Program-made: the position numbers and the translations under genes
Source of the DNA: Acrocarpospora phusangensis
GTDB taxonomy: Bacteria > Actinomycetota > Actinomycetes > Streptosporangiales > Streptosporangiaceae
NCBI RefSeq assembly: GCF_016862995.1
Contig: NZ_BOOA01000083.1
Location: forward strand, 1-35,130
Reading direction: 5' to 3'
DNA: 35,130 nucleotides
In this document: positions 4,702 to 24,429 of the stretch, piece after piece
How the letters are laid out: the number at the start of each line of letters is the position of its first letter
How positions within the stretch are numbered: position 1 is the first letter of the stretch
Notes under the pieces: generated by a model
What the model was told of the DNA's origin: nothing
Seen by the model: only the letters and a program-made list of their open reading frames with translations
The model's database searches: none

Positions 4702-5007
4702 ATGTCACGCAAGGGCTACCCGTCGGAGTTTCGCCGCAAGGTGCTGGATCTAGTCGAGGCCGGACGGCCTGTGAGGGACATCGCCCGCGATCTGGGGATC
4801 AGCGAACAGACGATCTACGTCTGGCGCAAACAGGACCTGATCGACAAGGGTCGGTTACCCGGTGCCACCACGACCGAGCAGGTTGAGCTGCTGGCCGCCC
4901 GCAAACGGATCCGGGAACTGGAGACCGAACTGGCCGTCACCCAGCGGGCGATCGAACTGGTGCGAGAGGTGGTGCCCCCAAAAGACGGTTCGAAGCGATC
5001 GCGGTGA
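4702..5007 (+). CDS. IS3 transposase OrfA (HTH subunit)
   Basis: This is a 101-residue protein with the standard HTH of IS3/IS911 OrfA (YPSEFRRKVLDLVEAG, then DIARDLGISEQTIYVWRKQ). A leucine-zipper-like C-terminal helix follows (LLAARKRIRELETELAV). It binds the terminal repeats and normally fuses to OrfB by a programmed -1 frameshift near its 3' end. It appears complete, but its partner is broken. Confidence 0.9.
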   Translation: MSRKGYPSEFRRKVLDLVEAGRPVRDIARDLGISEQTIYVWRKQDLIDKGRLPGATTTEQVELLAARKRIRELETELAVTQRAIELVREVVPPKDGSKRSR

Positions 5008-5853
5008 TGGCCGGCGAGGCCTGCCGGTCCAGGTCGCCTGCAGGGTCCTGAACGTCTCCGAATCGGGCTACTTCGCCTGGCGGAACCGCCCGCCCTCGCC
5101 CAGGTCGCTGCGGCACGCGTGGCTGAGTGAGCGCATCCGGCAGATCCACGCCGCCTCCCGCGGCACCTACGGCTCGCGGCACGTCCACGCCGAGCTCAAA
5201 CTGGGCAGCGGCCTGATCGTCGCCTACCACACGATCGAGATGCTGATGCAGCGCCAAGGCATCCGCGGCCTGCCCGGCAACCCGCGAGGGCGCCGGCCGG
5301 CCCAGCAGGCCCCTGCCGCCGCCGACCTGGTCGACCGGGACTTCCACCGGGACGCACCCAACACGTTATGGGTCACCGACATCACCGAGCACCCACCCGC
5401 GAAGGCAAGGTCTACTGCTGCGTCGTCCTGGACGTCTACTCCCGCCGCGTCGTGGGCTGGTCCATCGACAGCACCCAAACATCGGCGCTGGTCACCAACG
5501 CGCTCGGAATGGCCATCCACAACCGCACACCGCAGCCGGGCGGGCTGATCCACTCCGACCACGGGACGCAATTCACCTCCGGGGCGTTCACCCGCCGCGC
5601 CCGCGAATCCGGGCTCGTCCCCTCCATGGGCTCCATCGGTGACTGTTTCGACAACGCCGTCATTGAGTCCTTCTGGGGCCGCATGCAGGTCGAACTACTC
5701 AACCGGCAACGCTGGAGAACCCGCATCGAACTCGCCAACGCGATCTTCGAGTACCTCGAGATCTTCCACAACCGGCAACGCCGCCACAGCGCCCTGGGAA
5801 TGCGCACACCCGTCGAATACGAGATGCTCTACCCAACCCGTCAACCGGCATGA
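5007..5853 (+). pseudogene. IS3 transposase OrfB, two frameshifts
   Basis: The DDE catalytic subunit is readable only across three frames. The expected EAIAVMAGEG...LPVQVACRVLNVSESGY is interrupted by a 1-base loss near 5020. A second 1-base loss near 5394 separates WVTDITEHP (first catalytic Asp) from the continuation REGKVYCCVVLDVYSRRVVG. Downstream the second Asp (HSDHGTQF) and the Glu (VIESFWGRMQ) are intact. The programmed IS3 frameshift lies upstream of both sites, so these are true lesions or assembly errors. All three catalytic residues survive, so the decay looks recent. Confidence 0.85.
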
Positions 5854-7035: not shown

Positions 7036-7098
7036 TAAATGACGAAAAAAGTGTTTCACGCTGATCCAGCCAGGTCATTTTCAAAGAGGGGGATAACG

Positions 7099-9108
7099 TT
7101 GAGCAATGAAAAATTGCCCAAGGGAATTGCGACCGATGCCAAGTCCGCAGTAATGCGACCGTCGCTGTTGGAATCAGCTTTCCCATATGCGGATGTATCG
7201 CGGCTGGTCGCAGCTGATCGGAGAAGCCGAGACGGTGCTTATAGCGCCCATCGCTGGTTTGCCAGACGGCCAGCAGCCCTGCTGCGGTCACTCTTGTTGG
7301 CAGCCGCCTTGCCTGCTGAAGCGTCGATTGAGGAGTTGTGGAGCACATACAGGCAGCCGGTCGAATGGCTGCGGGGCAAGAAAGTCCATGATCCATTTTT
7401 GGGAGGAGGAACAACACTAATCGAGGCAAGCAGACTTGGGGCCGATTGCATTGGGGGCGACATTGACCCACTTGCAGTACTAATGGCTCGCCATGCCAGC
7501 AACCCACCGACCAGGTCGGAATTCAGAGAGTCTGCCGACGCCTTAATAGATCATTTGAAAGCACAGATTGGGCATCTGTACCCCTACCGCGAGGCAACCT
7601 TACCTCTCCATACCTTCTCGATCGCATTGGTGACCTGCAATACATGTGAGCTTGAAGCGCCCCTATACCGCAACCCAATTATCAGTCGGGGTGTGGACAA
7701 GCAGGGCTCGGTTGCCCGCCCTCTCGGCTCGACCGTTTTCTGCCCGCAATGCTTCCAAGTTCATGAGCTGCCAGTTTCGGCAGACGACTTTGCTTGCTGC
7801 GGGTCAGTCTGGCGACTCGATGAAGGAACATTCGCAGGCGCGTTCTTTGTCTGCCCTGGTTGTGGGGCGAAGAGTACGCACCGCGATCTGAAGACAGGGA
7901 TAGCGCCGCGAGTTCGAGTGGCAGTGGAAGAGACTGGACCTCAAGGCCGTCGCTTCCGCTCGGCCGATCATCGCGAGATAGACATGGAGGCAGAAGCGCG
8001 GGCATTCTTGCTAGCAAACTGGCGCAAGATGGACCTACCGAATGCGGAGTTTCCTTCAGATCGCACGGATGCTCGACCGGTAACCTTTGGCATATTGAGC
8101 TACAGGCAGCTCTTTAGTGATCGACAGCTCGCGCTCTTCGGAGTTGCATTCAATTGGATTCAGAATCAGAATCTCAATGCTTCAACCGATAGGGCGTTGA
8201 GATTGGCTGTCAGTAATGCATTGGCAACGAACAACCGACTCTGTGGTTATGCCCATGAGTACGGTCGCCTAGCGGCGCTATTTAGCGTCAGAGGCTATTC
8301 ATTGCCCACGCTGGCGGTCGAGCTCAACGCACTTCATCCAACAGCAGGAAGAGGAACGATTCCGCGTGTCGTAGAAAGAATTATGGCTTCTCTTAGTCGG
8401 GAAACTCGGCGTTACGTTTTTGAAGAGAATCCGCACATATTCGGCAGTGAGCGAATCGCAAAGATGGCAACACTAGAGTTCCCTCGATCCCAAAATGTGT
8501 CAGTTGACGTTGTATCGGCAGACTCGGATGCAAGACGAGAACCCGATTACGGGGATGTGGATCTGATCCTGACTGATCCGCCCTATTTCGACTATATCGC
8601 CTATGATGAACTATCCGCCTTCTACCGAGCCTGGCTGGTCAATTCCGATCTTGCTGCGAAGCCACTACACCCGCCTGCAACAGGAGATCGGGTCAAGGAA
8701 TTTGGAACTCGTCTCGGTAGAGCGCTCTGGATTGCGGCAAGCCGGCTGAAGCCTACGGGGCTGCTGGCTTTCACTTATCATTCTTCCAATCCCGATGCTT
8801 GGAGTGCCGTAGGTATCGCACTCGACGAGGCCGCTTTGCGAGTTACCGCTTTGTGGCCTGTACTCACGGATCCACATATGGGACATCACGGCAAAAAGGG
8901 ATCATGCGAGCATGATCTCGTCGTAGTGGCGAGACCTTCGCTTATTGCACATTCCGGACCCGCGCCTTTCGAGGGTACGGACGACCCTGCGGAAGCGTGG
9001 GTAGCCGATGCTGCCCGTGTGCTCCAGCTGGGAGAAGCAGATCGCATGAATCTGCGATTGGCATATGAGACTTGCTCACCTCGATGGGGCGTGCTCGATG
9101 TGCCATAG
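7099..9108 (+). CDS. Adenine-type DNA methyltransferase with zinc ribbon (COG1743/DUF1156-like)
   Basis: The protein has the N-terminal signature of this family (RPSLLESAFPYADVSRLVAA, then AHRWFARRPAALLRSLL). The SAM-binding motif DPFLGGGTT starts at residue 98 and the catalytic motif DPPYF at residue 493. The order, with motif I first, is that of amino-methyltransferases making N6-methyladenine or N4-methylcytosine. Residues 180-255 form a cysteine-rich insert (four cysteine pairs, CNTC to CPGC) typical of the zinc-ribbon methylases. TTG at 7099 is preferred because AGAGGGGG lies six bases upstream and a -10 box sits at 7030; ATG at 7039 has no ribosome site. It heads a four-gene cassette and probably marks self DNA for it. 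Its base composition is clearly less GC-rich than the chromosomal genes, consistent with transfer. Confidence 0.88.
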   Translation: MSNEKLPKGIATDAKSAVMRPSLLESAFPYADVSRLVAADRRSRDGAYSAHRWFARRPAALLRSLLLAAALPAEASIEELWSTYRQPVEWLRGKKVHDPFLGGGTTLIEASRLGADCIGGDIDPLAVLMARHASNPPTRSEFRESADALIDHLKAQIGHLYPYREATLPLHTFSIALVTCNTCELEAPLYRNPIISRGVDKQGSVARPLGSTVFCPQCFQVHELPVSADDFACCGSVWRLDEGTFAGAFFVCPGCGAKSTHRDLKTGIAPRVRVAVEETGPQGRRFRSADHREIDMEAEARAFLLANWRKMDLPNAEFPSDRTDARPVTFGILSYRQLFSDRQLALFGVAFNWIQNQNLNASTDRALRLAVSNALATNNRLCGYAHEYGRLAALFSVRGYSLPTLAVELNALHPTAGRGTIPRVVERIMASLSRETRRYVFEENPHIFGSERIAKMATLEFPRSQNVSVDVVSADSDARREPDYGDVDLILTDPPYFDYIAYDELSAFYRAWLVNSDLAAKPLHPPATGDRVKEFGTRLGRALWIAASRLKPTGLLAFTYHSSNPDAWSAVGIALDEAALRVTALWPVLTDPHMGHHGKKGSCEHDLVVVARPSLIAHSGPAPFEGTDDPAEAWVADAARVLQLGEADRMNLRLAYETCSPRWGVLDVP

Positions 9109-9184
9109 TACGTTCGTAGACAGGACGGTACGTGTCTAGGATGATGCCGGGGGGGGGTCTAGGCACCAACTGCGAAGGGCGGAA

Positions 9185-10546
9185 ATGAACCGCAGCGAGC
9201 GGATACATGACGTGGAGACTCGTAAGAAGGCTGCCTTTCGTGATGGCCACAGACGAACACATGATCTCTGGTGTAATGGCGAGTGGAAGAAATTTGAAGT
9301 GTGGCGCGTTCCCGTTGACGCGCTAACTCTGAATGTAGACAACAAGCGCTTTGGCGCAACGCGCACATTGGTAGAGCAGGGACTGGGCAGAACATTAGAT
9401 CCCGAGAACGATCCGGTCGATGAACTCTCGATCATATCAATCTTGCTCGATCAAAGCCTGAAGATTGATATGGAAGGCGTGTCCGGAACCGCCAGTAAGG
9501 ACTACCTCGCCCTACGTGAAGACTGGCATGCGCGTCAGCAGGCCGAGCCTTTATGGATTCGCCCTGACGGAACCGTACGTAACGGCAACAGGCGTCTCGC
9601 CATGATAAAGAGGGAACGCGCCCTCCACGGTGCGGCGAGTATAAATGAGTGGGTCGAGGTAATCATAATCGACCCTGCCCATGTCGACGAAAAAGAACTG
9701 TTCCGTATGGAGCAGAATGAGCAGTTGGCAGAGAATTTCAAAAAGCGATACGACCGGATCGATAGGCTGCTTGCTCTCAGGGAAGCGGCAGAATTGGAAG
9801 GAATCGACTGGGCGGATCCTGCCAGCTTGGATCGTGTAGCAGGGATCCTGAAGCACTTCGCCGGGAAGGACGATAAGCGGTATGCGATCACTCAGCTGAG
9901 AGCAATCCGTGCCATTGATGCTTATCTCGACTACTTGGGGCAACCAGGTCAATATCACTATGTAATGCAGGAGCGCCAAGTCGAGGTCTTTAGAGAAGTA
10001 GGTCGCATTCTACAATTAGGAGACGAATACGCAGATGATATATCCGACTTGACGCTGACAGCCTTCGCTGCTGTGCAAGCAGGCGCGACTTATAATGATA
10101 TTCGGTCTATGCGTAAGCTATTCACTGAAGACCGAGAAGAATTCCTACGAGTAGCAGGCCAGATTGGCAACGAGGAAGAACGCGCAGGGTGGCCGCCAGA
10201 TTCGGATACAGAGACCGAAATCGCTGTAGTCGATCCTGAGGTCCTTACGGCGGAAGAAAACGAAGAAGATCCGCCGGTGCCGCCCGCCACGGCCCTAAAC
10301 TACCCCAAGAAGGCTGTCCTAGGGCACATTCAGCGTGCTGTTGACCGGGTCAGCACGGCAGGTCTGGATGTAGCGGCGCAACTGCAACAGGCGCGTGATC
10401 GCCTCGAAGCGGTGACTGAAGATCGGCTAAGAGAAGCCATGGCCAGCGCGGTTACAGAAGATATTTCTGAATCGCTAAGGGCCATCGTAGCTTGGGCAGC
10501 CCACATACGAGCAACGTCGCTCGGGGGAACCAGTGTCGAGGAATGA
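9185..10546 (+). CDS. ParB-fold (ParB/sulfiredoxin-like) protein of the cassette
   Basis: The N-terminal 150 residues look like a ParB-type domain. An opening strand and loop (VWRVPVDALTLNVDNKRFG) is followed by a long spacer and then the NGNRR box at residues 133-137 (RPDGTVRNGNRRLAMIKRE), which corresponds to the GxRR nucleotide-binding motif of ParB proteins. The remainder is helical and ends in an acidic linker and a helix-rich tail. ParB-like domains bind or hydrolyse CTP or ATP, and they occur in partition systems and in DndB-like and other defence proteins. There is no ParA gene nearby, so partition is unlikely. It is placed between a methyltransferase and a helicase, with its stop overlapping the helicase start (ATGA). 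A role in sequence recognition or regulation of the complex is inferred. Confidence 0.72.
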   Translation: MNRSERIHDVETRKKAAFRDGHRRTHDLWCNGEWKKFEVWRVPVDALTLNVDNKRFGATRTLVEQGLGRTLDPENDPVDELSIISILLDQSLKIDMEGVSGTASKDYLALREDWHARQQAEPLWIRPDGTVRNGNRRLAMIKRERALHGAASINEWVEVIIIDPAHVDEKELFRMEQNEQLAENFKKRYDRIDRLLALREAAELEGIDWADPASLDRVAGILKHFAGKDDKRYAITQLRAIRAIDAYLDYLGQPGQYHYVMQERQVEVFREVGRILQLGDEYADDISDLTLTAFAAVQAGATYNDIRSMRKLFTEDREEFLRVAGQIGNEEERAGWPPDSDTETEIAVVDPEVLTAEENEEDPPVPPATALNYPKKAVLGHIQRAVDRVSTAGLDVAAQLQQARDRLEAVTEDRLREAMASAVTEDISESLRAIVAWAAHIRATSLGGTSVEE

Positions 10547-12510
10547 GCGAAGCCGATTCCGTGAGCATGACTGTAAGAGTTGAGTTTGACGGAGACGCTG
10601 TACTTGTTCGAGGCAATCAGGCTCTCGTCAAAGACCGGCAGCTGCGGTTATATTTTGGCTCTCTCTTGGGGGCGCAAAGAATCTCAGACGGCTGGCGTTG
10701 TCCACGCCGCCGGCGTGAACTAGGCGAGTTGGCTCTTCAGATTGATCGGTACTTGGCGCGGCGTGGGTTCTCTGTCAGCCGCGACGAAGGCGTAGACGAT
10801 AGCGTCCGAAGAGATGAAGAAAGGCAGCGTAGTTTTGCGCGTACGCGTAAGGCCGCTCAAGATCTTCGAGAAGGTGTGACACCCTTTTCGCTGCATGAAA
10901 TTCAAGCGGAGTTAATTTCCGCAGGATGGAACAACGACGAGCGGCCTCTTCGACCCCATCAGTTGGACGCTGTTATTCACGGCTTGACAGTAGGAAATGC
11001 TGCAAACTTCAGTGTTCCAGGAGCCGGAAAGACAGCCAGTACTTTAGCCTTGGCTACGGTTCATCAGAATGCGGGGACAATCGACTGTATTGTGGTCGTA
11101 GGCCCGCTGTCCAGCTTTCGTCCATGGGAACTTGAGGCGGCAACTGCGACCCCGTGGCTTCGGCCGATTCGAATCAGGGGTAATGCTGGCAAGCGACGTA
11201 GCCTTTATGGGGATGCTGTCCCGGGTTCACTTCTGATCTTAAGTTACGCGGTAGCCGCATCGGATCAAAGACAATTGATCACCTTGTGTGAACGCCTCAA
11301 CGTAATGTTAGTTGTAGACGAGTCTCACCGAGTGAAGCGGTTTCGCGGAGGTATTTGGGCTCCGGCCCTACTAGAGGTTTCAAAGCGCGCAAGGGTTCGT
11401 ATCATTCTGAGCGGGACTCCGATGCCACAAAGCGGCCGCGATTTGTATTCTCAGCTTAATATAGTTTGGCCTGGCCGTGAGCTTACCGGCCCGCGTGATC
11501 CTTTTGCTGCCGAAGTTAAGGACCACTTCCATCGCGTCCTAGACCGCGTAACTCCTTTTATGATCAGGACTCCGAAGAGAGCACTCGGATTGCCCGAGGC
11601 GACTATTGTTCGACATGCCGTAGAATTGTCTGAACTGGAAGCGCAAATATATAACCTTGTGGTACAAAATTTGCGTCGGCGTGTCGATGCCGCAGGGTCG
11701 GTTGAGCGGGCTCGTTTAGAGGCTCTACGCCGTGGGCGGCCCTTACGTTTGATCCAAGCAGCAACTAACCCCGAGTTGCTTGGGAGGTTGGACCTGGGGA
11801 TCCCCATACCGCCTGTATCTGGCGCACCGACGCTGCTTTCACGGCTCGATACTTATGATCCACTCACGACACCCGCCGCTAAAAGTCTCAAGGCAATTGA
11901 GGTGCTCACAGGTGTCGTAGCTGAGCAGGAAAAGGCAGTCGTCTGGAGCAGCTTTATTGCTAATCTGGATCGCTTCTCGGAATTGGCAAAGGCTCGATTG
12001 CAGGTTCCAGTCTTTCAAGTCGACGGAAGAATTGCCACTGGAGATGAGGCCTATGACGATAACCTCGCCTCTCCTGCTGATGCGCCTGAGACGCGTGAGC
12101 AGGTGATCTCATCCTTTTTGTCGTGCAGGGGGCCAGCATTATTGGTAGCTAATCCTGCTTCCTGCTCGGAATCAATCTCGCTACATATGGCTTGCCAAAC
12201 TGCAGTGTACCTCGATCGCACCTATGATTGTGCCCAGTGGCTACAGTCCATCGATCGAATTCACAGGCTTGGGCTTCCTCCCACAGCCAAAGTTGTGGTT
12301 CACATTTTGCAAGCTGTGATGCAGGATAAGCCAACTGCGGACTTTCTCGTCGATTCGGCGCTTCTTCGAAAAGAAGAGGTCATGCGTCAATTGCTGGAGG
12401 GGGCTGAGCTTGGTCCGATAGGTCAGAGTGACAATGCTCTAGCTGATGCTGAGGGTGACTTTTCGGATCTCCATGAGATGTTGAAATACTTACTCGGGAT
12501 AGCCCCATAG
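10543..12510 (+). CDS. SNF2-family (SF2) helicase/translocase
   Basis: This is a 655-residue protein with a full set of SF2 motifs. Motif I PGAGKT is at residues 159-164, motif II DESH at 259-262 and motif III SGTPMP follows. The C-terminal lobe has VVWSSFIANLDRF and ends in motif VI, QSIDRIHRLG (Asp571, Arg575). The N-terminal 120 residues carry no recognised domain. The DESH box and the DRIHRLG form place it with SNF2-like translocases of the kind found in DISARM (DrmD), Type I and Type III restriction and related systems. I chose ATG at 10543, which overlaps the previous stop as ATGA. It probably translocates on unmodified foreign DNA and hands it to the nuclease-like gene downstream. Confidence 0.88.
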   Translation: MSEADSVSMTVRVEFDGDAVLVRGNQALVKDRQLRLYFGSLLGAQRISDGWRCPRRRRELGELALQIDRYLARRGFSVSRDEGVDDSVRRDEERQRSFARTRKAAQDLREGVTPFSLHEIQAELISAGWNNDERPLRPHQLDAVIHGLTVGNAANFSVPGAGKTASTLALATVHQNAGTIDCIVVVGPLSSFRPWELEAATATPWLRPIRIRGNAGKRRSLYGDAVPGSLLILSYAVAASDQRQLITLCERLNVMLVVDESHRVKRFRGGIWAPALLEVSKRARVRIILSGTPMPQSGRDLYSQLNIVWPGRELTGPRDPFAAEVKDHFHRVLDRVTPFMIRTPKRALGLPEATIVRHAVELSELEAQIYNLVVQNLRRRVDAAGSVERARLEALRRGRPLRLIQAATNPELLGRLDLGIPIPPVSGAPTLLSRLDTYDPLTTPAAKSLKAIEVLTGVVAEQEKAVVWSSFIANLDRFSELAKARLQVPVFQVDGRIATGDEAYDDNLASPADAPETREQVISSFLSCRGPALLVANPASCSESISLHMACQTAVYLDRTYDCAQWLQSIDRIHRLGLPPTAKVVVHILQAVMQDKPTADFLVDSALLRKEEVMRQLLEGAELGPIGQSDNALADAEGDFSDLHEMLKYLLGIAP

Positions 12511-12512
12511 CC

Positions 12513-13448
12513 ATGGATATACGGGGTGGGTGGTTCACGGGTGCACGCTTCGAGCGTATGGTTAGCCTTATTGCAGCACTTCCTAGCAGATCTTATTCGC
12601 GCTTTTCGACTGAAAACGTCACACGTCTACTATTTCCGATTGTTGGTGGTAGCAATGATGAGATCCGTGACTGTCTTCGGGTGTTAGAGGACATAGGTCT
12701 AATAGGAAGCGTTGGAGGCTATGCTCGTAGCCCGAGAGGTGACAAAGTTGCAAAGGACCTTAGAAAAGGTGAACGCTATTCTTTGGTAATGGCAGTCTTG
12801 CGCTCGGGTTTGATTGCGGACCAAATTCAATACTTGTTATCTGTTAGTCGATATGAAAATGGGGCTCTATATTTTGGAGTGCCTGAGGCGAGAAGAGGAT
12901 CGGCTCAGTTGCTGGGGCTTGTTTCTTGGTTGCCTGAGTATGCTACTGGATCGCCTGCGCATGTTTACGGGCAACTCTGCGAAGAGCTCACGTCGGCGTG
13001 GAACCTCAGATCTGCTGCGGTAGTTTCGGTGGGAGACGAGCGTCAGCGAGTAGGGGAACGTGCTGAGCTTTATAGCCTTCAGCTTCAGCGCCAGAACTAT
13101 CTATCGATTGGCGCTCAAATTGCATGGGTTTCTCAAGAGGCTCCGAACTTAGGCTATGATATTGAGATACGATCGCCTCGGCCTATCAAGTGTATCGAGG
13201 TCAAGGGGAGTAGGGCGCCAAGCCTTAGCTTCATCCTTAGCGATAATGAGTGGCAAGCTGCCTTGAGGCTCCAAGATGTATACGAAATCAACTTTTGGGG
13301 CGATGTTCGCCTCGATGAATCTGCACCGCAAGGTTACGCACGCCTTACGGGGTTGGGCTTCCCGATAGTAATCGAGAACCCCGCGACTGTTTTAACTCGT
13401 TCGCCGTACGTTATACAGCCGCAGGGCTGGAAAGTTCGGCTAGAATGA
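12513..13448 (+). CDS. Winged-helix plus DUF3883/PD-(D/E)XK-like nuclease
   Basis: The protein has two parts. Residues 20-85 read like a winged helix (DEIRDCLRVLEDIGLIGSVG, then YARSPRGDKVAKDL). Residues 185-290 match the DUF3883-type domain: ERAELYSLQLQRQ, GYDIEIRSP (Asp216), CIEVKGS (Glu229, Lys231) and ILSDNEWQAALRL. The D...ExK pattern is that of PD-(D/E)XK nucleases, so cleavage or DNA binding is likely, though no activity can be proven from sequence. It starts two bases after the helicase stop without a strong ribosome site of its own, so it is probably translated by coupling. It is the last gene of the cassette and the most AT-rich. Confidence 0.78.
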   Translation: MDIRGGWFTGARFERMVSLIAALPSRSYSRFSTENVTRLLFPIVGGSNDEIRDCLRVLEDIGLIGSVGGYARSPRGDKVAKDLRKGERYSLVMAVLRSGLIADQIQYLLSVSRYENGALYFGVPEARRGSAQLLGLVSWLPEYATGSPAHVYGQLCEELTSAWNLRSAAVVSVGDERQRVGERAELYSLQLQRQNYLSIGAQIAWVSQEAPNLGYDIEIRSPRPIKCIEVKGSRAPSLSFILSDNEWQAALRLQDVYEINFWGDVRLDESAPQGYARLTGLGFPIVIENPATVLTRSPYVIQPQGWKVRLE

Positions 13449-18452: not shown

Positions 18453-18794
18453 ATGCGAACCATCCCGATTCCCGTCGATGCGGCCAAGCTCGTCTTCACC
18501 TGCGTGAAGGCCCCACACCCCCGCGTCCTGAACCGCGACACCGGAGAGATCAAGCTCGACAAGACTGGCCAGGCCATCTACGAAACCGTCCTGTCGGTCG
18601 AAGACGACTTCGGCCGCATCGAACTCGTCAAGATCGGCACCTCCGGCGATCCCGGCGTCACCGCCGGATCGGAGGTAACCCCGATCGGCATGATCGGCTA
18701 CGTCTGGGAGACCTCCGGCCGGTGGGGCATCTCCTACCGAGCCGCATCCTTCCAACCCGCCTACTCGCGACCGGCGGACGGCGGACATGCCTGA
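18453..18794 (+). CDS. Conserved AICE protein preceding the translocase
   Basis: A 113-residue protein of unknown biochemical role. It begins with RTIPIPVDAAKLVFTCVK, has a beta-rich middle (VLSVEDDFGRIELVKIG) and ends with WGISYRAASFQPA. Proteins of this size and pattern commonly sit directly before the FtsK-like translocase in Streptomyces elements, and the strand pattern would suit an OB-like fold; both statements are from memory and untested. A very strong ribosome site AAAGGAGG lies eight bases before ATG. It overlaps the translocase gene by eight bases, so the two are coupled, and it is the first gene under the KorSA-type operator. Confidence 0.7.
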   Translation: MRTIPIPVDAAKLVFTCVKAPHPRVLNRDTGEIKLDKTGQAIYETVLSVEDDFGRIELVKIGTSGDPGVTAGSEVTPIGMIGYVWETSGRWGISYRAASFQPAYSRPADGGHA

Positions 18795-20100
18795 CACCCT
18801 GCCGGAGCTCCTCGCCTTACCCGGAGTCCTGGCCGCCCTGGCGGCTGGGCTCTGGGCCTGGCGCCGCTTCCACCCCGTCTCGTTCTGGTACGTCCTCGCT
18901 TACCCGCTCACCGCAGTCGGCATCCGCGCTAGCTGGCGCAAAGTCGCCCTCGGCTGCGGCCTCACCAAGAAACGCCAGCGCTTCTGGTGGACCGTCACTC
19001 CGGCCGCGATCGTCTCCACCGGCACCGTGAAAGTCCGCCGGACCTTCCGCCGCGTCGCCGTCGACACCAAACCGTGGATGTGGTTCCCCCTCCCCACCCG
19101 GTACGGCTGGCGCGTCACCATCCGCCTCCTGGAAGGCCAGATCCCCGCCGACTACTCCGAAGTCGCCGAACGCCTCGCCCACTCCTGGGGAGTCCACGCC
19201 GTCCGGGTCTCCTCCGACAAACCCGGTCGGATCCGCCTCAACGTCACCATCCATGACCCGCTCATCCGCGTCGACCAGATCCCGCCCTCGACCGACCTGC
19301 TCAAGGTCACGGTCGGACGGCTGGAAACAGGCGGCGCTTGGCTGATCGACTTCACCACCGTCCCACACTGGATCAACGCCGGAGCAACCCAGTCGGGAAA
19401 ATCGAACCTCGCCAACGCGCTGCTGGTCGGCCTCGCTCCCCAACCGGTCGCGCTGGTCGGTTTCGACCTCAAAGGCGGCGTCGAATTCACCCCGTACGCG
19501 CCGCGCCTGTCGGCGCTGGCCACTTCCCGCAGCGAATGCAGTGATCTGCTGGCCGATCTGATCGGCCGCATGGGCCGGTGCCGGACCGCCGGCGCCCGCA
19601 ACATCTGGCAGCTACCAGCAGACGATCGGCCGGTCCCCATCGTGGTCCTGGTCGACGAACTGGCCGAGCTGTACCTGATGGCCGACAAGAGCGAGAAGGA
19701 CGAGATCGCCCGCATCTCCACCGCGCTCCTGCGCATCGCCCAACTCGGCCGCGCCTTCGGCATCTACCTGTTCTGCTCCGGCCAGCGAATCAGCTCCGAA
19801 CTCGGCCCCGGCGTCACCGCCCTGCGCGCCCAGTGCTCCGGACGCATCTGCCACCGGGTCAACGATCCCGAGACCGCCACCATGACCCTCGGCGACCTCG
19901 ATCCGTCCGCCCTGGACTCCGCCCGCGCCATCCCCGCCGAAAAGCCCGGCGTCGCCATCGTCGCCCACCAAGACGGCCACTGGTACCGCGCCCGCTCCTT
20001 CCACATCCCCGAGAAGACCGCCGAACAGGCCGCACACACCTACGCCCACCTCACCCCGAACTGGGCCGACATCCGCGCCGAAGCCAAGATCCCCGCCTGA
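18787..20100 (+). CDS. traSA: FtsK/SpoIIIE-type DNA translocase (TraB/TraSA)
   Basis: The 437-residue protein has membrane-near hydrophobic segments at the N-terminus (VLAALAAGLWAWRRF, FWYVLAYPLTAVGI) and an FtsK ATPase domain. Walker A GATQSGKSN is at residues 199-207 and Walker B VVLVDEL has its acidic pair at 290-291. LGRAFGIYLFCSGQR follows. In actinomycete conjugation this single hexameric pump moves double-stranded DNA between hyphae, and it is the defining transfer gene of an AICE. The length and domain order match TraSA/TraB. The gene symbol is assigned by family and context. Confidence 0.9.
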   Translation: MPDTLPELLALPGVLAALAAGLWAWRRFHPVSFWYVLAYPLTAVGIRASWRKVALGCGLTKKRQRFWWTVTPAAIVSTGTVKVRRTFRRVAVDTKPWMWFPLPTRYGWRVTIRLLEGQIPADYSEVAERLAHSWGVHAVRVSSDKPGRIRLNVTIHDPLIRVDQIPPSTDLLKVTVGRLETGGAWLIDFTTVPHWINAGATQSGKSNLANALLVGLAPQPVALVGFDLKGGVEFTPYAPRLSALATSRSECSDLLADLIGRMGRCRTAGARNIWQLPADDRPVPIVVLVDELAELYLMADKSEKDEIARISTALLRIAQLGRAFGIYLFCSGQRISSELGPGVTALRAQCSGRICHRVNDPETATMTLGDLDPSALDSARAIPAEKPGVAIVAHQDGHWYRARSFHIPEKTAEQAAHTYAHLTPNWADIRAEAKIPA

Positions 20101-20125: not shown

Positions 20126-20827
20126 ATGCGCACCGTGTCCGCCTGGCTGATCGACACCGGCCCCGTCCTGGTCCTGGCGCTCATCGCCGGTACGGGCTCC
20201 TTCACCCACATCCGCGACACCGCCACCGAACACGGCCAGGACGGCTGGATGGCCTGGGCCGTGGCCGTCTGCATCGACCTCACCTGTGTCATGGCCGCCC
20301 GCGAACGCCAACGCGACAAGAAGACCCGCCGCACGCGGCAGGGCTGGACCTCCTGGCCCACCCTCGTCCTGGTCGCCGGCATCGTCCTGTCCCTGGCCGC
20401 CAACCTCCACCAAGCCGAACCCACCACCTGGGGATGGCTCACCGCGGCCACCCCAGCGGGCGCCTTCCTGATCGCCGTCTCCATGCTCGAACGCCGCGCC
20501 ACCAACCCACACCCCGAACCGTCCACGGCATCCGAACTGATCCCGGCACCTAAGGACGTGACCGCTGAGAGCACCGGCCTATCCGTCCTCGGCCCGTCCC
20601 CGGCGCCCGTCCTCGTCCCCACCGTCCAGGACGGCCAGGACGGCCAGAACGACCGGTCGGCTCCGGCTTCATCGCTGATCGACTACGCCCGCCGCGTAGC
20701 CGACGAACACCACGCCCGACACGGCAAACCCATCACCCGCGACATGCTCCGCACCCGCCTCGGCGTGTCCAACAAACTCGCCTCCGACCTGCTGCGCGAC
20801 ATCCGCGCCCACCCAGAACCCGCATGA
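20126..20827 (+). CDS. DUF2637-type membrane protein (Spd-like)
   Basis: The 233-residue protein has about four hydrophobic segments in its first 120 residues (LIDTGPVLVLALIAGTGSF, WMAWAVAVCIDLTCVMAA, WPTLVLVAGIVLSLAANL, LTAATPAGAFLIAVSML). This is the DUF2637 pattern seen beside AICE translocases. The C-terminal 50 residues look like a small helix-turn-helix (HGKPITRDMLRTRLGVSNK), separated by a proline-rich linker. It may assist plasmid spread within the mycelium, as Spd proteins do, while its cytoplasmic tail binds DNA. The ribosome site GGGAGG is clear, 25 bases after the translocase stop. Confidence 0.8.
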   Translation: MRTVSAWLIDTGPVLVLALIAGTGSFTHIRDTATEHGQDGWMAWAVAVCIDLTCVMAARERQRDKKTRRTRQGWTSWPTLVLVAGIVLSLAANLHQAEPTTWGWLTAATPAGAFLIAVSMLERRATNPHPEPSTASELIPAPKDVTAESTGLSVLGPSPAPVLVPTVQDGQDGQNDRSAPASSLIDYARRVADEHHARHGKPITRDMLRTRLGVSNKLASDLLRDIRAHPEPA

Positions 20828-21083: not shown

Positions 21084-22430
21084 TTGCCTCGAAACGCCAC
21101 CAACACGCATGCGATCACGGGGGTGATCAACCGCCTCAACAGTCAGGACTTCGACCGTTGGGCCGTCCAGATCCGGCGCGCCGGCGGCTGCCGTCAGCCG
21201 ATCCACCTGCGCGGCAAGGTTGAACACCGTGATAGAGCCACCGGTGCTCTGCTTCACAGGTACAGCACTCGCCTGGAACCGGGCGGCGTGCTGCGGATTC
21301 CGTGTAAGACTCGGCGAGCTTCCCGCTGTGAATCCTGCGCCGAGACGTACCGGGCCGACACCTATCAGCTCATCCGCGCGGGCCTGGCCGGCGGCAAGGG
21401 CGTGCCCGTGACGGTGATCACGCACCCGTGCCTGTTCGTCACGCTCACCGCGCCATCCTTCGGGCTCGTCCACACCCGACGCGAACGGAACGGGAAACCG
21501 GACCCGTGCCACGCACGCCGCGCCGCTGCTACCTGCCCGCATGGCGTCGTCATGTCCTGCACGGTCCGCCACTTGGTCACTGATCCCCGCCTCGGCGAAC
21601 CGCTGTGCCCCGACTGCTACGACTACACGGGCTCGGTCCTGTTCAACGCTTTGGCGCCGCTGTTGTGGAAACGATTCACCGACGCGTTACGCGGTCGCCT
21701 GGCCAAAGGCGCGGGCCTGGCCGCTAAGGCGCTTCGGGAACAGGCCGTAGTGTCCTTTGCCAAGGTCGCCGAATACCAGCGCCGCGGAGTCGTCCATCTT
21801 CACGCCGTGATCCGCCTCGACGGCCCGGACGGGCCCGTCTCCCTGCCTCCGGTCTGGGCAACGGGGGAGATCCTGACTGATGCCGTACGGCATGCTGCAA
21901 ACGTCGTCTCTGCCGTGGGCCTTGCCAGCCGCAAGCCGCTGCGCTGGGGTGATCAGCTCGACATTCGCCCGATCACTCTGAACGGCGACCTCACCGCCCA
22001 AGCCGTCGCGGCCTACGTCGGGAAGTACGCCACCAAAGCCGCAGAATGCATCGGAGTCATCGACCGTCGCATCTATCCCCTCGACGACCTGGCCGCGCTG
22101 CCCATCCGCGACCACGCCCGCCGACTGGTGGCCGAATGCTTCCGCCTTGGCGGGCTGGACGAACTGGACGGCCTCCGACTCCTCATGTGGGCTCACATGC
22201 TCGGCTTCCGGGGTCACTTCTCCACTCGATCCCGCCACTACTCGACCACCCTCGGAGCACTCCGGGCGGCCCGCACTGACCATGTCGTCGACCACAAGAT
22301 CACCACCGGACGGCTGTTACTCCTCGACGAGAACACCGTTCACGTGATCTCTGACTGGACCTATGCCGGACGTGGGCTCAGTTCGGGTGAAGCGCTTTTG
22401 GCCGACGCGATCCGGGACGGTGTGCGATGA
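21084..22430 (+). CDS. repSA: RepSA-type replication initiator
   Basis: The 448-residue protein begins at TTG with AAAGGAGAT seven bases upstream. It has a cysteine-rich N-terminal part (CKTRRASRCESC, CHARRAAATCPHG, LCPDCYDY) and a rolling-circle initiator core with the HxH strand RRGVVHLHAVIRLDG near residues 233-247 and a tyrosine helix AAYVGKYATKAAE. This is the pattern of RepSA of pSAM2, which nicks the element's origin and lets the excised circle replicate. It lies in the rep-xis-int order typical of the family, and its stop overlaps xis (ATGA). Confidence 0.88.
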   Translation: MPRNATNTHAITGVINRLNSQDFDRWAVQIRRAGGCRQPIHLRGKVEHRDRATGALLHRYSTRLEPGGVLRIPCKTRRASRCESCAETYRADTYQLIRAGLAGGKGVPVTVITHPCLFVTLTAPSFGLVHTRRERNGKPDPCHARRAAATCPHGVVMSCTVRHLVTDPRLGEPLCPDCYDYTGSVLFNALAPLLWKRFTDALRGRLAKGAGLAAKALREQAVVSFAKVAEYQRRGVVHLHAVIRLDGPDGPVSLPPVWATGEILTDAVRHAANVVSAVGLASRKPLRWGDQLDIRPITLNGDLTAQAVAAYVGKYATKAAECIGVIDRRIYPLDDLAALPIRDHARRLVAECFRLGGLDELDGLRLLMWAHMLGFRGHFSTRSRHYSTTLGALRAARTDHVVDHKITTGRLLLLDENTVHVISDWTYAGRGLSSGEALLADAIRDGVR

Positions 22431-22615
22431 CCCGCCGCGACGAGCTGATGGGCGTCTCGGAGGTCCTCAACGAGCTGGGCATCTCGCGGCGGACCTTCTA
22501 CCGCTGGCGCGAGCTCGGCCACGCGCCCAAGTGCCTCAAGCTGCCCAACGGCGAGATCCGCGTGTGGCGCAGTGACCTCACGACCTGGTTAGCGACTCTC
22601 AAGGAGGCCGCGTGA
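22427..22615 (+). CDS. xis: Excisionase (MerR-type HTH)
   Basis: The 62-residue protein is a single HTH of the excisionase class (MGVSEVLNELGISRRTFYR, then LPNGEIRVWRSDLTTWL). It bends attachment-site DNA so that the integrase runs in the excision direction. It overlaps rep by four bases and int by four bases (GTGA), so all three are likely made from one transcript. Confidence 0.88.
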   Translation: MTRRDELMGVSEVLNELGISRRTFYRWRELGHAPKCLKLPNGEIRVWRSDLTTWLATLKEAA

Positions 22616-23979
22616 ACACCTCCTATGACGTGAAGTTCTGGGAGACCCGCCGGAACAGCGCCAGCAAGACACCGTCCTACACCGTGCGTTGGACGGTCGG
22701 CGGGCTGGCGAAGTCCAAGACCTTCCGGACAAAGGCACTGGCCGACAGCTTCCTTTCTGACCTCCGACAGGCAGCGAAGAGGGGTGAGGCTTTCGACCTG
22801 AAGACTGGACTCCCTGAGTCCATGCTTGCGCCAGCCAGGAACGAAGGGCCTACCTTCCTGACCTTCTCGCAGTCCTACCTAGCGGGCCGATGGGTCCACC
22901 TTTCCGCCTTGAGCCGGGAAGCTGTCGCATACGCGCTGTTGTCGATGCTGCCCATGCTGGTCAAGGACATCCCGAACCGTCCGGAAGACGACGATCTTCG
23001 GGCTGTCCTCCGTACTTACGCCCTGCTTCCCGAGAGCCGTAGGTCAGAACTGCCAAAGCAGCTGGAGAAGGCGCTTGGCTGGCTTGAAAAGGCATCGCTT
23101 CCCCTGGCCGACCTAGCTGAGCCGCGCGTTATCCGGCTGGCGCTGGACTCGATCGCGCTTACGTTCGCGGGCAAGTCTGCGGCGGCCACCACGGTACGGC
23201 GTAAGCGGGCGATCTTGCACCACATGATGGAGTCAGCGGTTGAGCTGAGGTTGCTGCCGTCGAACCCACTCCACGCCGTGAAGTGGAAGCGGCCGGTGGC
23301 TGCGGATGCCGTCGATCCTGGGACCGTGGTCAACCCGGCTCAGGCGCGGGCCCTGCTCGACGCGGTCGGCCGGGTGGGCCGGACGCGTGGGCGTCGCATG
23401 GTCGCCATGTTCGCGTGCATGTATTACGCGGCTCTGCGTTCGGAGGAGGTCGCCGCACTTCGACGCCAAAACTGCCACCTCCCAGAGGAGGGGTGGGGCG
23501 TGATCACGCTCGAACGCGCTCGTCCGCAAGCGAACAAGCGGTGGAGCGACTCAGGCGAGTCCCACGATGAACGCGGGCTCAAGCACCGGGCCGTCAAGGA
23601 GACGAGGACGATACCCATACCGCCGGTCCTTGTCGCACTGCTGCGGGCGCATATCGACGAGTACGGCGCGGCGGCCGATGGCCGGCTGTTCCGTACAGGG
23701 CAGGGAAGCCGTTACTCCGCCTCGGCCTGTTCGCAGGTCTGGCAGGAAGCCCGTCGACTGGCCTTCACCCCCGAGCAACTCGTCTCGCGTCTGGCGGCTC
23801 GTCCGTACGACCTTCGACACGCGGCGGTCTCGCTATGGCTGAACGCGGGCGTCCCGGCGCCCGAGGTAGCTAAACGGGCGGGGCACAGCGTTGATGTCTT
23901 GCTCAAGGTCTACGCAAAGTGCATCGATGGCCATCAGTCCCGCGCGAACGGTCAGATTGACCACGCTCTCGACGAATGA
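22612..23979 (+). CDS. int: AICE tyrosine integrase
   Basis: A complete 455-residue tyrosine recombinase with a GTG start overlapping xis. Catalytic residues can be placed: Arg276 in YYAALRSEEVAALR, Arg402 and His403 in YDLRHAAVSLWL (the first histidine of the usual HxLRH is Tyr here), His425 in AGHS, and the nucleophile Tyr434 in LLKVYAKC. It lies 204 bases from a tRNA-Arg gene whose 3' end faces it, the standard arrangement for site-specific insertion. A decayed near-copy is present at 280-1266. Confidence 0.93.
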   Translation: MNTSYDVKFWETRRNSASKTPSYTVRWTVGGLAKSKTFRTKALADSFLSDLRQAAKRGEAFDLKTGLPESMLAPARNEGPTFLTFSQSYLAGRWVHLSALSREAVAYALLSMLPMLVKDIPNRPEDDDLRAVLRTYALLPESRRSELPKQLEKALGWLEKASLPLADLAEPRVIRLALDSIALTFAGKSAAATTVRRKRAILHHMMESAVELRLLPSNPLHAVKWKRPVAADAVDPGTVVNPAQARALLDAVGRVGRTRGRRMVAMFACMYYAALRSEEVAALRRQNCHLPEEGWGVITLERARPQANKRWSDSGESHDERGLKHRAVKETRTIPIPPVLVALLRAHIDEYGAAADGRLFRTGQGSRYSASACSQVWQEARRLAFTPEQLVSRLAARPYDLRHAAVSLWLNAGVPAPEVAKRAGHSVDVLLKVYAKCIDGHQSRANGQIDHALDE

Positions 23980-24020: not shown

Positions 24021-24183
24021 CGTGTTTTCGGGCCATGACCTGGCCAAACGCCGTGAAGATCATTCCGTGTATATTCCGCGACTACTGACAAACAGCCGCC
24101 TACGGCGGCATCTGGCTGCTCAGGTGGCGTGAACCTACGTCGGAGAAGGCACAGGTCACACGGCATTTCGCCTGGTCAAAGGG

Positions 24184-24230
24184 TGCCCCCGGTAGGAATC
24201 GAACCTACGACACCAGGTTTAGGAAACCTG
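24184..24230. other. Right attachment site within the tRNA 3' half
   Basis: AICEs recombine within the 3' part of a tRNA gene, and the intact tRNA here sits beside int. The exact core cannot be set because no second copy of the tRNA 3' end is found in the window. The 163 bases between the int terminator and the tRNA include a GCCGCC/GGCGGC hairpin and may hold arm-type integrase sites. Confidence 0.55.
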
Positions 24231-24256
24231 TGCTCTATCCCCTGAGCTACGGGAGC
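24184..24256 (-). tRNA. tRNA-Arg (anticodon CCT)
   Basis: Read on the minus strand it folds as a complete 73-base cloverleaf. The acceptor GCTCCCG pairs with CGGGGGC, the D arm is GCTC/GAGC, the anticodon arm is CAGGT/ACCTG around loop TTCCTAA, and the T arm is GTAGG...CCTAC. The discriminator is A and CCA is not encoded. The gene's 3' end points at the integrase and serves as the insertion site, leaving the tRNA intact. Confidence 0.95.
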
Positions 24257-24429
24257 TTGGTCTGCAGGCTAAGCCTAGCGAAAGTGCGGGGTGGTGCGCG
24301 CCAGGATAAGGCGCGCCGGGCGGGAGGACTGGTCAGTAGTGGTCTGACCTGCGGTAAAGGGCTGGCAAGGGGGGATGTTAGGGGTGGGTGGGGTGGTTAC
24401 GGTCGCTGTTCGTGATTGGACGGCGGGGG

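Follow-up and report, generated by a model that had tools for sequence, protein, structure and literature searches.

A four-gene cassette in a 35,130-nucleotide contig of Acrocarpospora phusangensis (NZ_BOOA01000083.1; this whole stretch is called the window) probably encodes an unnamed, nucleoside triphosphate (NTP)-dependent restriction-modification (R-M) system built on a dyad of a ParB-fold protein and an SNF2-type motor and carried by a conjugative element. Judging from sequence and from comparison with relatives, we give this reading a probability of about 0.72. The cassette encodes, in order, a DNA methyltransferase (MTase), the ParB-fold protein, the SNF2 motor and a nuclease of the NOV_C/DUF3883 family (Table 1). 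A first-pass annotation had proposed a candidate new defence system here; what stood of this is the unnamed R-M-like gene set, and a role in defence would follow from R-M logic by analogy.

Analysis of open reading frames (ORFs) gave four complete ORFs on the forward strand of the window (span 7039/7099-13448). They are coupled or nearly so after the first, as originally described, with a gap of 76 nt between the MTase and ParB genes, an overlap of 4 nt between ParB and SNF2, and a gap of 2 nt between SNF2 and NOV. The first-pass annotation had the MTase frame right but placed the start of the set at 7099, which is an in-frame TTG; the first ATG lies at 7039 and another at 7153, and translation could also begin at 7099 or 7153. 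The SNF2 ORF opens at 10492 and stops at 12510, and translation likely starts at the ATG within the ATGA overlap with the ParB stop codon (10543-10546). The cassette is more AT-rich than its surroundings, as had been claimed: G+C content is 0.51-0.56 at 7-13 kb versus 0.60-0.69 in the other 1-kb blocks of the window, so that it lies ~10 points below the flanks.

The motifs initially reported (a DPPY methylase, an NGNRR ParB box, superfamily 2 (SF2) helicase motifs and a D...ExK nuclease-like domain) are all present in the ORFs. In the MTase, DPFLGGGTT occupies residues 118-126 and DPPY residues 513-516. The protein matches N6_N4_Mtase above the curated cut-off (expectation value (E) 4.7e-8) and DUF1156 below it (E 3.2e-4, 21.2 bits, cut-off 24). 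As an R-M system calls for, the motifs are intact, relatives keeping DPPY in 16/16 and DxFxGxG in 15/15 ungapped rows; the Cys pairs in the insert between motif I and DPPY are kept in all ungapped rows except C238 (13/16). Conservation of the MTase in the window's clade (see below) peaks at residues 401-440 (mean pair identity 0.75-0.80, nine rows), a stretch that follows motif I, precedes DPPY and takes in none of the catalytic motifs. The motor matches SNF2-rel_dom above the curated cut-off (E 8.4e-16), and the best Protein Data Bank match of its profile is Sulfolobus Snf2/Rad54 (1z63, E 9e-46), from a family of double-stranded DNA (dsDNA) translocases. GxGKT, DExH, the TP of GTP and QSxDR..R are invariant in 33/33 chosen SNF2 rows. 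The nuclease likewise matches NOV_C above the curated cut-off (E 7.5e-11). Its G181, E185, D216, E229 and K231 are invariant in 61/61 aligned sequences (61 of 67 found; partial ones were excluded), and E185, D216, E229 and K231 are predicted to be catalytic because they follow the PD-(D/E)xK pattern; the endonuclease of the putative R-M system thus has its predicted catalytic residues intact. The NOV model (predicted local distance difference test (pLDDT) 90.2, predicted template modelling score 0.61) matched Hjc resolvases in Foldseek (probability up to 1.00, E 0.02) and a SPARDA nuclease (0.97). Across the window's clade, the NOV protein varies more in its N-terminal half than in its nuclease half, and the N-terminal half might read the DNA target. 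An NCBIfam scan of the four proteins gave nothing above cut-off.

The ParB-fold protein carries the motif DGTVRNGNRR, and its AlphaFold model (pLDDT 90.1) has pNOB8-like ParB-N structures as its top four Foldseek matches (best probability 1.00, E 0.032). Residues G129, N135, R137 and E176 are invariant in 50/50 aligned relatives (50 of the 84 sequences found; partial ones were excluded). The profile of the family aligns with Spo0J across the GERR and EN..R boxes (E 0.15, alone at chance level), four records of relatives carry a ParB annotation, and individual relatives match TIGR00180 (2/50), HTH_ParB (2/50) or ddrB-ParB (1/50). The window protein itself matched no Pfam, PADLOC or NCBIfam family, Pfam returning only three chance-level matches (E 0.06-0.08); these databases gave no consistent family for the protein and its relatives together, and the PADLOC families among the relatives were scattered single matches. 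By predicted fold and motif we assign the window protein to the ParB/Srx superfamily, its sequence statistics being weak. Because a tblastn search of plasmids with this protein gave no match, the SNF2 protein was used as the plasmid query.

To place the cassette among its relatives, 84,980 species genomes were scanned with an SNF2 profile and the best 80 of 524 related stretches analyzed. Together with the window and three loci found through ParB, and minus a duplicate (L011, on the same contig as L006, with equal length and shared sequence), these make up 83 distinct rows. Ten SNF2 stretches with 45-53% identity stand apart and form with the window a clade of 11 distinct rows (support 100*), drawn from Chloroflexota, Myxococcota, Actinomycetota, Pseudomonadota and Latescibacterota records besides the window; the tree was built by a quick method without bootstrap, and the positions of the long branches L008, L074 and L031 are unsure. 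ParB, SNF2 and NOV are adjacent in 11/11 clade rows, and a DUF1156-like MTase lies upstream in 9/11 (window included; L014 is shortened by a contig end). All four genes occur in the same order in 8/9 other clade members with room for them, the contig of L016 ending before the MTase position. The four genes therefore do co-occur beyond this genome, 9/11 clade rows holding the complete set. In a phylum sample of 296 genomes, own included, all four genes were present in one other genome and distant ParB-SNF2 pairs in two. Within the genus, the motor occurs in 1/5 genomes, the window's own, so the cassette is accessory. None of 15 control windows of 18 kb, taken from the same genomes at fixed rather than random positions, contained any component (0/15), which together with the recurrence elsewhere places the four-gene set beyond chance.

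The remaining rows (26-37% identity, from bacteria and archaea) mostly keep the same order. With iterated profiles, ParB was found in 77/80 scan loci, the misses being L060 and L088 at a contig start and L042 with another ORF; the ParB ORFs of L068, L081 and L083 were identified by a profile search across all ORFs. ParB lies on the SNF2 strand in 80/83 distinct rows, within 250 nt in 77 and within ~410 nt in three (81/84, with 78 at ≤250 nt, if L011 is included). NOV was present in 65/80 scan loci and 67/83 distinct rows, always ≤250 nt from the SNF2 end. Since SNF2 had chosen most of the 83 rows, the linkage was retested from the ParB side. The ParB profile alone was present in 18/150 family genomes and 6/396 phylum genomes (own included in both), and the resulting draw comprised 18 loci (17 from the family, window excluded, and one from the phylum), of which 17 were testable, L134 ending at a contig edge. 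SNF2 lay directly downstream in 17/17, NOV was present in 10/17 and an MTase in the fetched stretch in 16/17. Annotated records agree: a ParB profile match directly precedes SNF2 in 13/13, hand-picked from 191 plasmid and 178 phage records with SNF2-related matches, many of them weak. At the weak end of the plasmid and phage matches (for example helicases of Vibrio and Paenibacillus phages, 22-23% identity), the proteins are probably SNF2 helicases of other kinds, and they were left uncounted. What is conserved is the pair of ParB and SNF2, to which NOV and an exchangeable MTase are usually joined; the four-gene set named in the first-pass annotation does recur in the clade, but the conserved unit is wider than that set. 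Two variants of ParB arrangement were also seen: three archaeal loci (L031, L051 and L055) have two tandem ParB paralogues before SNF2, and in a nineteenth, weak locus of the ParB draw (L145) two ParB-like ORFs flank SNF2.

In 69/83 rows, the region from -4.3 to +4.8 kb relative to the SNF2 start holds an MTase of one of four families (D12 in 23, C5 in 18, DUF1156-like in 16 and small N6/N4 in 12). MTase type changes 14 times on the SNF2 tree, compared with a least possible number of 3 and a shuffled mean of 37, so MTase partners have been swapped, though not randomly. Divergence correlations (rho) within MTase groups were 0.71-0.90 for ParB-SNF2 and 0.72-0.95 for SNF2-NOV (0.61 and 0.59 across all 66 rows). 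The corresponding MTase-SNF2 values were 0.39-0.45 for the C5, small N6/N4 and D12 groups and 0.84 for the window's type; for D12, ParB-MTase (0.11) and NOV-MTase (0.03) correlations were reached by 50 and 97 of 300 shuffles.

The nuclease partner is exchangeable as well. On plasmids of Lactococcus, Enterococcus, Lacticaseibacillus and Limosilactobacillus (L099, L100, L103, L110), the dyad comes after Mod and Res, annotated as type III, within a single gene run, which suggests that a portion of the systems annotated as type III consist of four genes. A NaeI homologue (L138:5030-5986, reverse strand; E 1.1e-90 to 1ev7) directly follows SNF2 in a stretch that also holds a C5 MTase. Other annotated records show ParB-SNF2-DUF3883, or MutH/Sau3AI with C5 MTases, and a Streptococcus prophage holds ParB, SNF2, NOV and a C5 MTase together. 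Upstream of the core we found BglII (2/47) and MutH (1/47), and downstream EcoO109I (1/45), TdeIII (1/45) and Vsr (3/45). The first-pass annotation would have given way had homologues occurred mostly outside defence or mobile contexts; instead, the recurring partners in the loci covered are MTases and restriction-type nucleases, while ordinary neighbors (peptidase, transporter, purine synthesis) have one occurrence each. Several loci carry further genes or extensions. In Bacteroidota rows with a D12 MTase in the NOV slot, a nucleoside-phosphorylase-like gene precedes ParB (L037:7478-8248; PNP_UDP_1, E 6.7e-22; 4/47 upstream proteins). In L052 and L054, which also have a D12 MTase in the NOV slot, ParB bears an N-terminal extension with a sub-threshold HNH_2 match. 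Two Enterococcus plasmids have a large gene (~815-865 aa) directly before ParB-SNF2 (L108:1825-4419 and L109:1977-4424), and the four MTase profiles found no match in their stretches.

From the observed gene order, motifs, predicted folds, linkage and exchange of MTases and nucleases, we propose the following mechanism. The MTase would mark a sequence in host DNA as self, and the restriction side would consist of the ParB-fold protein, the SNF2 motor and the NOV nuclease, presumably acting as a complex. The ParB-like protein would serve as a nucleotide-gated DNA clamp or loader, using a nucleotide in the process, and the SNF2 ATPase would move it along dsDNA without unwinding. The NOV PD-(D/E)xK nuclease would then cut DNA that lacks the mark, and such cleavage, directed at unmethylated DNA, could restrict phages or plasmids. 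A broader and clearly more tentative proposal is that ParB-SNF2 works as a restriction engine or licence of general use and represents an unrecognised R-M class across bacteria and archaea. Here, a nucleotide-gated clamp and a dsDNA motor would couple to MTases producing N6-methyladenine, N4-methylcytosine or 5-methylcytosine and to nucleases of the NOV, NaeI and type III Res kinds, perhaps also to a motor-fused nuclease. If so, one engine would serve MTases of unrelated chemistry, and an unrecognised motor-clamp pair would be present at some R-M loci whose annotation says simply Type II or Type III; the records that we opened label the motor 'DEAD/DEAH box helicase' and its partner a 'hypothetical' or 'ParB N-terminal' protein. 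The small, transferable cassette would then also allow a direct test of ParB-fold roles in defence (nickase, NTPase, clamp or regulator).

Several observations weigh against an R-M system built on the dyad. The ParB assignment rests on fold (no Foldseek match with E <0.001), motif and relatives. All fold matches of NOV have E >0.01, and the lower ones include transcription regulators and small-molecule methyltransferases. L018, in the window's own clade, has a small N6/N4 MTase instead of the DUF1156-like one, and in 14/83 rows none of the four MTase families is represented within range; contig ends cut several of these rows, and two hold Eco57I or N6_Mtase genes. NOV is missing in 16/83 rows (L026 and L086 at a contig edge, ten with a D12 MTase in the slot, and L008, L042, L069 and L082 with other arrangements) and in 7/17 loci of the ParB-only draw (L138, with its NaeI homologue, and L128, L131, L132, L133, L135 and L144); NOV is therefore not an obligate partner of the dyad. 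Shared ancestry enters into the divergence correlations, which do not prove contact between the proteins. Finally, next to a type III or NaeI-type system that is complete in itself, the dyad is not the sole restriction engine and may be accessory or regulatory.

This last point leads to the chief rival, which we consider unlikely for the window: ParB-SNF2 would assist or regulate ordinary R-M systems, for instance by stripping away bound proteins, shielding the host chromosome or governing the MTase, while in the window NOV would restrict alone as a Type II-like enzyme. Type III Mod-Res and NaeI restrict without such a dyad, and both are among its neighbors on the four plasmids and in L138; the loose correlation of MTase and core divergence in the C5, small N6/N4 and D12 groups fits an accessory role too. 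However, ParB and SNF2 are seldom separate and NOV is usually next to them, a linkage too regular for the dyad to be just an optional addition to NOV systems, and the divergence of the window-type MTase tracks the core closely (rho 0.84-0.88).

The cassette is the AT-rich cargo of a pSAM2-type actinomycete conjugative element, which bears out the carriage on a conjugative element asserted at first pass. The carrier region encodes RepSA, an FtsK/SpoIIIE-family ATPase, which we take to be TraB-type, a DUF2637 protein, presumably Spd-type, and an integrase, together with GntR and NUDIX genes found in the family scan (Table 1). The adjoining tRNA-Arg(CCT) is the probable integration site, given its position beside the integrase. 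For the left end of the element, no exact forward-strand repeat of ≥14 nt of the tRNA region 24101-24300 was found within the window. Just left of the cassette, at 4862-5853, lie overlapping frames that we take to resemble an IS3-type transposase (HTH_21, E 4.6e-12 for 4862-5545). Such a carrier, and relatives on plasmids (among the 191 records, many weak) and on one Streptococcus prophage, would suit a module for element maintenance or competition that excludes rival conjugative elements or kills after segregation through the R-M pair. We regard this as improbable as the explanation, in that the parts are restriction parts and SNF2 loci also lie on long contigs across many phyla; maintenance and defence are compatible, and both can hold. 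Plasmid partition was rejected, as there is no ParA among the four genes, and a toxin-antitoxin system was considered and set aside.

Table 1. Features of the cassette and its carrier element in the window
Feature	Position	Strand	Basis
DNA methyltransferase, COG1743/DUF1156-like	7039..9108	+	N6_N4_Mtase match, motif I, long Cys-pair insert, DPPY
ParB-fold protein (DGxxxNGNRR), 453 aa	9185..10546	+	AlphaFold/Foldseek fold, motif, relatives
SWI2/SNF2-type dsDNA translocase (PGAGKT, DESH, SGTP, QSIDRIHR)	10543..12510	+	SNF2-rel_dom match
NOV_C/DUF3883 PD-(D/E)xK nuclease, N-terminal half mainly helical	12513..13448	+	NOV_C match
FtsK/SpoIIIE-family transfer ATPase of carrier	18787..20100	+	PF01580, E 2.7e-20
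DUF2637 protein of carrier	20126..20827	+	PF10935, E 1.5e-12
RepSA replication initiator, pSAM2 type	21084..22430	+	PF20199, E 1.5e-152
Integrase of carrier	22612..23979	+	PF00589, E 1.2e-7
tRNA-Arg(CCT)	24182..24256	-	ARAGORN

Of the described systems, COG1743-DUF499-SNF2 (BREX-Related type 1) comes nearest; in the available portions of the sources, the cassette shares with it an SNF2-type motor, a nuclease and perhaps a broad MTase family (PMC12839542, PMC7641849). Hma, to judge by its gene names, is presumably the same system. The cassette could in principle be a divergent branch that has lost the DUF499 ATPase, and its MTase does match HmaB in PADLOC (E 1.3e-19; DUF1156_MTase 4.1e-13, both with partial coverage) and NF042963 in NCBIfam (73 bits, cut-off 1000). 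We consider this very improbable. The window has a separate NOV gene in place of the fused helicase-nuclease of most such systems and a ParB-fold subunit, for which the available portions of the literature on these systems name no counterpart, in keeping with the first impression of an unusual component; its wider family pairs with unrelated, exchangeable MTases. DUF499 (PF04465) was absent from the window's own genome and from 7/9 other clade genomes searched, a set without that of L014. In the other two it lies off the cassette contig (G402, on C282 and C177 versus C58; G398, on C6 versus C3, where C3 was taken from G001, apparently the same assembly, so that the separation in G398 is presumed). 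DUF499 being absent or unlinked, the cassette is not filed under COG1743-DUF499-SNF2. PglZ (PF08665) gave only a sub-threshold match in the own genome (22.7 bits, cut-off 25), on another contig (C19), and exceeded the cut-off in 1/10 genomes searched (G402:C126, cassette on C58). The lack of DUF499 and PglZ partners seen at first pass thus holds, and both Hma and BREX were set aside.

DISARM follows the same logic of MTase, SNF2 helicase and nuclease. It too was set aside: for DrmA-D, the PADLOC scan of the four cassette proteins, flanking genes lying outside the scan, gave only weak helicase matches among those listed (DrmD E 0.001, DrmA 0.0075), in line with the lack of DrmA, DrmB and DrmC subunits stated by the first-pass annotation. 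Type III R-M shares methylation, an ATP-driven motor and a nuclease with the cassette, besides being found directly before the dyad in the four plasmids. It differs in that no Res subunit (an SF2 helicase fused to a nuclease) is among the four cassette proteins, motor and nuclease being separate chains, and in that type III Mod proteins have DPPY before motif I, the reverse of the window MTase. The Lactococcus type III system LlaFI may, as a guess on which nothing is claimed, be a characterised carrier of the dyad.

Other systems share single components. DndB and DpdB are, in the available portions of the sources, ParB-superfamily proteins beside DNA modification, and PbeA is an SF2 helicase-nuclease fusion (PMC10853773, PMC12839542). 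The window resembles these Dnd/Pbe and Dpd systems in having a ParB-superfamily protein alongside DNA modification, but its proteins show no matches to phosphorothioation or deazaguanine enzymes, only weak helicase ones (DpdE, PbeA). In the accessible part of a REBASE-based archaeal survey, DUF3883 is presumably a Type II restriction endonuclease group (PMC10609329); the nuclease is shared, whereas ParB, SNF2 and helicase do not occur in the main text of that survey. DUF3883 has also been described, in the part available, as a novel restriction endonuclease domain that is SNF2-fused in R-M operons holding a HEPN-DUF499 protein (PMC3710099). No description of a ParB-SNF2-nuclease R-M set was found in open-licence PubMed Central full texts, subscription papers and preprints lying outside this scope, and the set was unmatched in the available portions of PMC6563490, PMC6098607, PMC5512222, PMC5379612 and PMC11318856. 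An exact match to a named system, which would have undone the proposal of a distinct type, is absent from PADLOC-DB 2.0.0, NCBIfam 20, Pfam and the papers searched, and the MTase found no relative in a viral-contig scan.

The PADLOC check suggested by the first-pass annotation returned, besides the HmaB-like score of the MTase, DpdE- and ZorD-like scores for the motor (none at 1e-20) and a weak TmtA match for the NOV protein; the ParB-fold protein had no match. Among 33 SNF2 relatives, PADLOC assigned ZorD to 18/33 and PbeA to 1/33 (1.7e-65). Two SNF2 ORFs (L107:4936-7491 and L111:4852-7488) encode 851 and 878 aa, >200 aa over the usual length, and L107 is, as a guess, the motor with the match to PbeA, in which a helicase and an HKD nuclease are fused.

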